Below, one piece after another: positions 38,827 to 41,219 of a stretch of DNA of 56,464 nt. The notes under the pieces were generated by a model, which searched no databases, had not been told where the DNA came from, and was given only the letters and a program-made list of their open reading frames with translations. This DNA is from an uncultured bacterium. GTDB lineage: Bacteria > Patescibacteriota > Minisyncoccia > Moranbacterales > GWC2-37-73. Location of the stretch: positions 1 through 56,464 of the forward strand of contig CAISKQ010000002.1 in the NCBI GenBank assembly GCA_903885965.1, given 5' to 3'. Each line of letters starts with the position of its first letter. The first letter of the stretch is position 1. The translations under genes were made by a program, and so were the position numbers.

Positions 38827-38875
38827 GATTCGAAAAAAGCGCAAGGGAAAAGATTTTCCGCTTGCGCTAGGGTGC

Positions 38876-38998
38876 CTACTGATGTTGCAAAACATATATC
38901 ACCACAGAAATAAGAAGGATAGCTTCTGCAATCAGAAGACCCCTCATAACTTTTGGATATTTGTAAGCAAAAATGATTTTCTTAAAGAACTCTTTCAT
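38876..38998 (-). CDS. 40-aa single-TM small protein
   Basis: ggagaaa RBS; MKEFFKKIIFAYKYPKVMRGLLIAEAILLISVVIYVLQHQ. Confidence 0.6.
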   Translation of the reverse strand: MKEFFKKIIFAYKYPKVMRGLLIAEAILLISVVIYVLQHQ

Positions 38999-39039
38999 AT
39001 TTTTCTCCTTTGTATTTTGATTGTTGGTTTTTATCTTAT

Positions 39040-39110
39040 CCATTTCTTTAAAACACAAACTTTTATGTCTTCAAGGATGGGGCTGATTTAAAAAGATTTC
39101 CAAATCAGCC
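39040..39110 (-). ncRNA. Two-hairpin RNA motif, copy B
   Basis: Minus strand GGCUGAUUU/AAAUCAGCC with GGAAAUCUUU loop followed by CCAUCCUUGAAGACAU...GUGUUUUAAAGAAAUGG. Confidence 0.65.
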
Positions 39111-39121
39111 GGGTTGTTTTC

Positions 39122-39598
39122 TCACTCTCGTAATGAGTCTGGAATCGGTGGCGGAGTGTTTTCAGCAATGACGAGGTCGTTGAGTTCGATAATCTTCCAT
39201 GCGACTTCCTCCCACGTTCCTTCGACACTGAGAAAGCTCCCGTAGCGTCCCAGTATTTCTTTCGATTCATTCAACATGTAATCGACACTTGCGGTGCCTC
39301 CCTTGTGGAAGGATGCAATGAGCACGCAATCTTGATCTGTACCTTCTGCTGCAAGGGGATCAAGTCCAATCCATACTGTCATCAGATAATTCTCTTCTCT
39401 CATCATCTCTTTATTCTCGTGGATCGTGAATACATATTTCACGATGGAAATCATTTTGAGAAGCTCTTTCCACTTCTCCACAAGCGCGAGTGCCGCCGCA
39501 AAACCAAGTTCTTCCCGCCTCGTCGCCGCATTGACCACGGAATCGATGATCGCCTGCGAAGGCTCCGGCAATGGCATAATGTTATCCACAATACTCAT
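39122..39598 (-). CDS. Hypothetical protein
   Basis: 158-aa ORF downstream of a hammerhead ribozyme. Confidence 0.6.
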   Translation of the reverse strand: MSIVDNIMPLPEPSQAIIDSVVNAATRREELGFAAALALVEKWKELLKMISIVKYVFTIHENKEMMREENYLMTVWIGLDPLAAEGTDQDCVLIASFHKGGTASVDYMLNESKEILGRYGSFLSVEGTWEEVAWKIIELNDLVIAENTPPPIPDSLRE

Positions 39599-39638
39599 GA
39601 TATTATCTCCTATTTTATTTTTTCAAAATAACTTTTTT

Positions 39639-39687
39639 CTGTTTCGTCCTTTTGGACTCATCAGTCGGAACACGCATTCCGAGACAG
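39639..39687 (-). ncRNA. Type III hammerhead ribozyme 1
   Basis: Minus strand CUGU-C|UCGGAA-UGCGUG-UUCCGA-CUGAUGA-GUCC-AAAA-GGAC-GAAA-CAG; all core nucleotides present. Confidence 0.92.
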
Positions 39688-39730
39688 CTGCGAAGTTTTG
39701 ACCGAGGATAACTTCGCGAACCTTGAGTTT

Positions 39731-39931
39731 CTATTGATTTTTGATTGCAATTTCGGCCTCCTCTATGATATCTGCGCCCGCTTCGATATCTTTCTCAAGA
39801 ATTATGGCGTCACCGTAGTAAACGGTTAGATGGCCATGTCTCTCGTAGACATTGCCTACGTATTTCCCGTCAAGGTGGATATCAAAATCTTGTGGGCACA
39901 TGAAACATTTGCAAATAAATGTAACATTCAT
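39731..39931 (-). CDS. Hypothetical small protein (66 aa)
   Basis: RBS-like ggagaac upstream; ORF. Confidence 0.5.
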   Translation of the reverse strand: MNVTFICKCFMCPQDFDIHLDGKYVGNVYERHGHLTVYYGDAIILEKDIEAGADIIEEAEIAIKNQ

Positions 39932-40054
39932 AATGTTCTCCTTTTATTTTTTAATTGATTTAAAATGAACTATAACTAGCAACTTTCCTTGTCGGTTCAA
40001 CGTCTATGACTTGCCTGTCCGCCTTTGGAGGAAACTAAACTGTCATTATCTTCT

Positions 40055-40130
40055 CCACTTCTTGAAAGTACGAATTTTCATACCCTCAAGGATGGGGCCG
40101 ATAAAGAAAGATTTCTCCCCTAAGTCGGCC
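40055..40130 (-). ncRNA. Two-hairpin RNA motif, copy A
   Basis: Minus strand GGCCGA...GGAGAAAUCUUUCUUUA-UCGGCC then CCAUCCUUGAGGGUAUGAAAAUUCGUACUUUCAAGAAGUGG. Confidence 0.65.
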
Positions 40131-40145
40131 TATCGCCTGATTTCT

Positions 40146-40949
40146 CTATTTAATCCCCGTTTCCTTGCTCCATTTTTCATAAAGCAAATCATTATTCTCA
40201 TAATATCCACCAACAAAGTTTGGGGAATGTTTAATAATGTCGACTTCTTTATATCTGGAAAATGATTCAGTTAAAAGATTAATTGATTTGGCCACAACTT
40301 CCTTTGGCGTCAACCAATATTTCGTATCCGCATAGGGTCTAATTTTCAAAGCTGTTTCCGTGATTGTTGACGTGATATTCACAGACAATCCCGAGATCCA
40401 ACTAGGATGCATTCTTATATGTGATTGGATATATTGCCTTAAGATAAATTTTGTTTCGCAAAAAGACTCAATCACAAACGGCGCATACATATCCCCCGAG
40501 CCTGCAACTATAACTATTTTGAATTTAATCTTAGACTTTCTTTGCAAATTTATTTCACCAATCTTTCGAGTGCAACATTTCAACAAATATTTAAACGTAT
40601 TTACGTTCGTGTTGTACACATCACTAGGGATAGTATCCATGGGCTTAATATTTGGATATCCTCGGGGTTCAAATTTATCCACGCCTATTGTGTGCAGAAA
40701 AACAACTCTTTGATATTTGCTAAAATCGACTTGCGCAAACACTTTCTCAATTTCTTTTTCTTTTGTCAGATCGCAAGTTATTTGCGTAAGGAAAGCAGAT
40801 TCAAACACGACTTTTCGATTTCTCACAATTGCAATGCAGTCAATTTTCTTTTTGGTGATTCTTCTGCAAAATTCCGTGCCAATCTCACCAGCCGCTCCAG
40901 CGACAATAGTTAATGTTTTTAGTTTTTTATTGTTACTCATAAATTTCAA
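40146..40949 (-). CDS. NAD(P)-dependent SDR/epimerase-like protein
   Basis: TIVAGAAGEIGTEFCRRI (glycine-rich nucleotide-binding motif), VVFLHTIGVDKF. Confidence 0.6.
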   Translation of the reverse strand: MKFMSNNKKLKTLTIVAGAAGEIGTEFCRRITKKKIDCIAIVRNRKVVFESAFLTQITCDLTKEKEIEKVFAQVDFSKYQRVVFLHTIGVDKFEPRGYPNIKPMDTIPSDVYNTNVNTFKYLLKCCTRKIGEINLQRKSKIKFKIVIVAGSGDMYAPFVIESFCETKFILRQYIQSHIRMHPSWISGLSVNITSTITETALKIRPYADTKYWLTPKEVVAKSINLLTESFSRYKEVDIIKHSPNFVGGYYENNDLLYEKWSKETGIK

Positions 40950-40970: not shown

Positions 40971-41028
40971 TTTCTGTTTCGTCCTTTTGGACTCATCAGC
41001 ACAAACTTTTTACATTTGTGGACAGAAA
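40971..41028 (-). ncRNA. Type III hammerhead ribozyme 2
   Basis: Minus strand UUUCUGU-C|CACAAA-UGUAAAAAG-UUUGUG-CUGAUGA-GUCC-AAAA-GGAC-GAAA-CAGAAA. Confidence 0.94.
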
Positions 41029-41096
41029 CGGAAATGCAAACGAGGTTGCATTTCCGGCGATTTTTGAGAGATCTGCTAAACTCTTTTTACTTTGCG

Positions 41097-41219
41097 TTAA
41101 TAGTTAAGATGCAGATAATACCAAAGCAGTAGTAAGCTAACGACTATGCAGCTCCACTTCAGATTAACCCAAGCCACTTTGGGATCCTGCGAAAATAACC
41201 TGCTAAAAATCTTTTTCAT
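41097..41219 (-). CDS. 40-aa single-TM small protein (not in the supplied ORF track)
   Basis: aaaggagc RBS; MKKIFSRLFSQDPKVAWVNLKWSCIVVSLLLLWYYLHLNY*. Confidence 0.6.
   Translation of the reverse strand: MKKIFSRLFSQDPKVAWVNLKWSCIVVSLLLLWYYLHLNY

Follow-up and report, generated by a model that had tools for sequence, protein, structure and literature searches.

Type I and type III hammerhead ribozymes have already been described in bacteria, and in bacterial and prophage genomes they occur as arrays whose members lie close together and flank single genes or short blocks of genes (PMC3088659; PMC6155905). Processing of long transcripts has been proposed for the prophage arrays, some ribozymes of which cut in vitro and in E. 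coli (PMC3088659). Most known cases in bacteria are tied to prophages. The element analyzed here, copy 2 of a type III hammerhead motif, lies on the minus strand (41028–40971) of a contig from an uncultured Patescibacteriota bacterium (GenBank CAISKQ010000002.1; the whole stretch of 56,464 nucleotides (nt) is referred to as the window), in an operon that also carries a second hammerhead, copy 1. Copy 2 is supported as a naturally occurring type III hammerhead with predicted cleavage, and so belongs to an established ribozyme class, because of its topology, its intact core, its match to a covariance model from which it had been held out and its compensatory base changes. The role proposed for it, the same as that suggested for the prophage arrays, is that self-cleavage splits a polycistronic mRNA between two genes of a co-directional operon, a reading given a probability of roughly 60%.

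The minus-strand sequence quoted in an earlier note on this DNA, which had named the element a type III hammerhead, is an exact match at 41028–40971, and the identification stands. Stem III is open and consists of 7 base pairs (bp; 41028–41022 with 40977–40971), with stem I (7 bp, 41020–41014 with 41006–41000) and stem II (4 bp, 40992–40989 with 40984–40981) both closed by loops; the same three helices are found in the minimum free energy and centroid folds and in the model alignment. The hammerhead core (CUGANGA...GAAA, with a UH dinucleotide before the cut) is present as CUGAUGA at 40999–40993, GAAA at 40980–40977 (the GAA element being 40980–40978) and U41022–C41021. Cleavage is predicted from this frame after C41021, between 41021 and 41020, in agreement with the ends at 41020 that the note had expected. 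The stem I it described is present, with its length corrected to 7 bp, counting the closing U-G pair, and its loop to GUAAAAA. Folded alone, copy 2 gave the hammerhead as both the minimum free energy and the centroid structure (z = −3.45), with none of 200 shuffled sequences equally stable. Folding of 41060–40930 retained the three stems and revealed a hairpin of 11 bp, absent from the earlier note, at 41056–41029, abutting stem III without a gap. The core pattern CTGATGAGN{6,14}CGAAA matches the window twice, at copies 1 and 2, against 0.03 matches expected.

In the wider family loop I is nearly fixed as UGUGUR, which suggests a contact between loops I and II of the kind that allows fast cleavage at low Mg2+. 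The loop of copy 2 departs from this sequence and is the sole enlarged loop I among the eight copies in the genus; copy 2 may thus cut more slowly than its relatives.

No match was reported in the window by Rfam at the curated cut-off. With relaxed limits, RF00008 (Hammerhead_3) scored 21.9 bits at copy 2 and 41.8 bits at copy 1, both below the gathering cut-off of 48.5 bits, which was passed by six relatives in 19 scanned loci and by one copy from a genus mate (49.6 bits). Because of this score, copy 2 is assigned to the structural class of type III hammerheads and not to the curated RF00008 family. The cut-off passes over both window copies and most of the relatives checked, and this may explain the lack of annotation for the family. 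A separate model (R1) was built from an alignment (A1) of 40 hammerheads of equal geometry, all from outside the genus. These sequences had been chosen for seven stem I pairs and at least four stem III pairs, so the percentage of paired positions in A1 is inflated; the UGUGUR loop was not selected for. Copies 1 and 2, both held out, scored 70.9 and 66.7 bits (E = 7e-18 for copy 2), and the next-best match in the window scored 10.7 bits. In an even draw across the phylum, 47 of 380 Patescibacteria genomes matched R1 at E ≤ 0.01, the window's own genome among them, compared with 3 of 379 in a single control phylum, that of a Pseudomonas genome. None of these three exceeded 34 bits, and one was the centre Pseudomonas genome itself, picked for having a pattern match. 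In R1 matches that fall outside the sequence pattern described below, the stem II pairs are exchanged as well (GCUC/GAGC, GUCA/UGAC, GUUC/GAAC and GCUG/CAGC).

Within the genome of origin (1.27 Mb, 99.5% complete), the pattern and R1 found no hammerheads beyond copies 1 and 2; among genus mates, G002 contains five and G004 one. In the genus and orthologue comparisons sequences were picked by core pattern or orthology only. Seven pairs are changed on both sides among the eight genus copies, with a covariation score of 0.408 against 0.181 in shuffles. Between copy 2 and its orthologue in G002 (contig C22), stem I carries two double compensatory changes (C-G to U-A and A-U to G-C), and no difference is seen in the catalytic core, in stem II or in the upstream hairpin. 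The helices of copy 2 are thus kept by compensatory change in the genus copies, in the orthologous pair and in the phylum alignment, and the note's statement that pairing is conserved without sequence holds. Core-pattern matches at five loci in other genomes of the order had no type III frame by eye and were taken as chance.

A scan of one genome per species from about 85,000 species with the pattern CTGATGAGTCYN{4,5}RGACGAAAC found 110 stretches, where about one chance match was expected from the collection size and base counts. Among the scan results a classifier recognized 102 type III and 14 type I hammerheads, and eight elements that were neither. Grouped by record title, named Patescibacteria accounted for 65 type III, no type I and one of neither type, unnamed bins for 33 type III, and named other phyla for 14 type I, four type III and seven of neither type; of these last four type III elements, one has just 4 bp in stem I. 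Among 121 cores unselected for pairing, the full type III frame was present in 91, against 0.21 expected when these cores were pasted at random positions. The matches are related by descent rather than independent events. The searches covered types I and III, and the counts are lower bounds, the pattern and model favouring copies whose stem II is GUC(C/U) and whose stem I has 7 bp. The predicted hammerhead family is centred on Patescibacteria. Another of the four type III elements from named other phyla, on a contig filed under Phycisphaerales (NORP244), has the same hammerhead and flanks as one from Wolfebacteria (NORP124), and may reflect misbinning in public data. Four type I hammerheads occur on a short contig attributed to Aliivibrio, directly behind the stop codons of consecutive genes, in an arrangement resembling a phage array.

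Members of the family lie between co-directional predicted genes. Eleven of 81 fall inside long open reading frames (ORFs), compared with 68% of random positions; a co-directional ORF ends within 250 nt upstream of 70 of the 81, and a co-directional start follows within 150 nt in 41 (antisense in eight; 18% for random positions). A stem of at least 8 bp stands directly upstream of 43 of 87 members versus 11% of random positions, and GTTCTTT, GATCTTT or GTTCATT occurs within 60 nt downstream in 37 of 102, as opposed to 29 of 688 stretches of 80 nt upstream of other ORFs; both tests were framed after the sequences had been inspected. Those tested among the downstream genes include ones for a radical SAM protein, a methyltransferase, glycosyltransferase 2 and, from ABC systems, substrate-binding proteins and a permease, as well as one with a weak receiver-domain match. 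At three loci several hammerheads follow in a row, one before each gene, and two of these (L157 and L180) share the order hammerhead, receiver-like gene, hammerhead, substrate-binding protein, with stems that differ but pair. The downstream motif recalls boxA, the NusB/S10 antitermination site of rRNA operons, an identity that is not confirmed. In the rRNA leaders of these genomes the loose motif matched near 16S in two of 11, and further off in a third, which is about chance level; the name was dropped except as a lead.

Units of a hairpin and a type III hammerhead are also found in uncultivated viral contigs, seven of which (L216, L230, L238, L245, L275, L302 and L310) are examples among others. 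As in Patescibacteria, the hairpin lies directly 5′ of the hammerhead and a gene starts soon after; the viral units differ in that their hairpin frequently reads GTGTCTTCAAAGACAC, exactly or nearly, and in that the GTTCTTT motif was not seen after the hammerhead. This recurrent hairpin, or a near variant, was noted upstream of type III hammerheads in eight viral contigs (L230, L238, L255, L256, L275, L302, L310 and L311). Because a similar unit occurs there, the predicted module is not exclusive to Patescibacteria.

In the proposed mechanism, the minus-strand operon would be transcribed and the RNA would fold and cut itself between 41021 and 41020. The hammerhead reaction leaves a 2′,3′-cyclic phosphate and a 5′-hydroxyl (5′-OH). 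Given the type III topology, the hairpin would stay on the upstream RNA and the ribozyme body on the downstream RNA. The upstream mRNA would keep the 11-bp hairpin and the cyclic phosphate near its end, slowing 3′ exonucleases, and the mRNA of the downstream gene would begin with a 5′-OH directly at stem I and resist 5′-end-dependent decay, so that the message would be split into pieces whose amounts can differ. The arrangement of hairpin and ribozyme is that expected of a message-separating device. This reading is preferred because of the held-out model matches, the compensatory changes, the intergenic placement, the enrichment of upstream stems and the hammerheads in a row, and sequence, structure, covariation, family spread, intergenic location and the upstream hairpin are all directly observed. 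Several points weigh against it. Transcription of copy 2, its cleavage and an effect on RNA stability are presumed steps, loop I is non-consensus, about half of the family has no clear upstream hairpin, and the leader hairpins described below occur hammerhead-free in genus mates; splitting is therefore not needed at every such junction. More tentatively, and rather less probably than not, Patescibacteria may use the hairpin, type III hammerhead and GTTCTTT-like motif phylum-wide as an mRNA end-forming device. If so, one cut would give the first gene a 3′ end protected by a hairpin and the next gene a hairpin-capped 5′-OH start, and in reduced genomes a ribozyme module would do some of what terminators and RNases otherwise do.

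The 5′ part of the minus-strand operon comprises a gene for 117 amino acids (aa; 41603–41250), a putative 40-aa gene encoding a hydrophobic stretch (41097–41219), the hairpin and copy 2, a gene for an NAD-binding epimerase/SDR-like protein of 264 aa (40146–40940; Pfam Epimerase, E = 8.6e-7) and a structured repeat. The 3′ part continues with a 66-aa gene, a hairpin and copy 1 (39637–39689), a 158-aa gene (39122–39598), the repeat again and a 40-aa ORF, behind which, near 38867–38833, the sequence shows a GC-rich inverted repeat with T6 after it. The SDR-like gene had been placed about 70 nt downstream of copy 2; its start codon at 40940 instead follows the motif's 3′ edge by 30 nt and the cut by 81 nt. 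Its product has an 81% identical counterpart behind the orthologous hammerhead in G002:C22, and a protein related to the 158-residue product lies behind a type A hammerhead in G002:C66. An Rfam scan of 38990–40160 found no RNA family at E ≤ 1 besides copy 1.

Each hammerhead is preceded by a leader element on the same strand. The type B element, 5′ of the copy 2 hairpin, contains a block, GAGTTTAGCAGATCTCTCAAAAATCGC (41057–41083), that like the hairpin is identical in G002:C22, although the sequence immediately 5′ of it there is unrelated; related copies are present in G002:C7 and hammerhead-free copies in G002:C66:4460 and G001:C124. The type A hairpin 5′ of copy 1 (39692–39724) has arms GCGAAGTT and AACTTCGC, which are exchanged to GAGGAGCT and AGCTCCTC in G004:C21, and occurs hammerhead-free in four genus mates. 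Hairpins of both types stand without a hammerhead before other genes at six loci (L043, L044, L045, L048, L023 and G002:C66:4460), and in L044 and L048 the hairpin is followed by just a short CTG..CAG-like remnant. A phage or plasmid origin was considered and rejected: the leader had no DNA match in named phages or plasmids, and the operon proteins gave only weak PHROG matches.

Window positions 41090–40046, comprising the leader, hammerhead, SDR-like gene and 3′ repeat, match G002:C22 as one block. The segment 42400–41610 also matches this contig, whereas the intervening genes (41609–41091) differ, and other genes lie between the matching flanks in G004:C17 and G005:C28. Since the block matches while adjacent genes differ, the hammerhead module travels with its gene within the genus, in an exchangeable gene cassette. 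Cassettes of a hairpin, with or without a hammerhead, a gene and a structured 3′ repeat were seen in the window (41090–40046 and 39724–39031) and at four other loci (L017, L043, L044 and L048), with neighbouring genes swapped between species at the cassette borders. The repeat is a dispersed element of about 75–80 nt after genes (40115–40046 and 39100–39031, minus strand), present at ten further loci (L003, L015, L044, L045, L048, L063, L067, L069, L075 and L081) and without an Rfam match; it consists of a hairpin with exchanged arms and a conserved CATCCTTGA..AAGAARTGGA able to form a second hairpin. It is a putative structured RNA and, as ribozymes tend to cluster, may be a ribozyme candidate. 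Elsewhere in the genus, two species share 1412 bp at 99.6% identity (L018:3724–5135 and G001:C124), a sign of recent transfer, and in the window's own genome the 16S rRNA gene (G000:C51) is interrupted by an insertion of roughly 600 nt, which contains an ORF (MEKISPDYVVGLVDGEGSF...) that by eye looks like an intron homing endonuclease.

The position of copy 2, 30 nt before a start codon, would also suit a genuine ribozyme acting in gene control, in which leader cleavage that is slow or regulated, responding to a signal, ribosomes or ions, alters translation or decay of the SDR-like mRNA. The enrichment of a motif between the ribozymes of relatives and their genes agrees with this, and the unusual loop I could act as a sensor site, but no conserved aptamer-like domain surrounds copy 2 and the downstream genes are too diverse and unrelated to suit one ligand, so that such a role is possible yet unlikely. 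The block match to G002:C22 and the swapping of genes between the same flanking elements raise another explanation, that the ribozyme serves a mobile element or gene-cassette system, for example in forming RNA circles or in cassette exchange, with any effect on mRNA secondary. Retroelements in eukaryotes are indeed marked by hammerheads (PMC6155905). However, the flanking elements are found without a hammerhead too, no reverse transcriptase or recombinase was identified beside copy 2, a unit-length circle is impossible from a single ribozyme, the neighbours across the phylum are ordinary genes, and the swaps are accounted for by homologous recombination of the flanks they share; this explanation appears distinctly improbable.

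The hairpin at 41056–41029 together with the following UUUCUGU could instead form a weak transcription terminator, with the hammerhead a tag-along or acting on read-through RNA only. The site was flagged as terminator-like by a scan, but that scan gives four such sites in all against 2.7 expected. The U tract is not conserved, being missing after the hairpin of copy 1 and of most relatives, and an assignment of the hairpin as an intrinsic terminator was dropped. A terminator would moreover leave the conserved ribozyme core unexplained, and this account is very unlikely. The hammerhead motif is simple, and of the 18 consensus hammerheads that Perreault et al. tested, four failed to cut in vitro (PMC3088659), so copy 2 might be a chance or decayed, inactive look-alike. 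Against this stand two cores in the window where 0.03 are expected, the E value of the held-out model match and orthologues with compensatory changes around an unchanged core, which leave it hardly credible. Splitting of the message between the two genes thus remains the preferred reading, and since 5′-OH and cyclic-phosphate ends can be searched for in existing metatranscriptomes, it is directly testable.

Copy 2 resembles Hammerhead_3 (RF00008), a family first known from plant satellite RNAs and viroids, in its core, its topology and its closed stems I and II with an open stem III; the window copies differ in lying in a bacterial chromosome, before genes, and not in a small circular RNA. In the open-access literature, the scope of the search, no paper joins hammerhead or self-cleaving ribozymes with Patescibacteria or the candidate phyla radiation (Saccharibacteria, Parcubacteria), and within that search a Patescibacteria-centred family with a frequent upstream hairpin and downstream motif appears to be undescribed. 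The family is chromosomal, occurs in reduced genomes with sometimes several members to an operon, and includes orthologous pairs set apart by compensatory changes. The published arrays, mostly tied to prophages, comprise types I, II and III together, whereas the named Patescibacteria matches are of type III only, in a search spanning types I and III. Unlike the prophage arrays, the Patescibacteria elements stand before ordinary chromosomal genes, often with a hairpin directly upstream.
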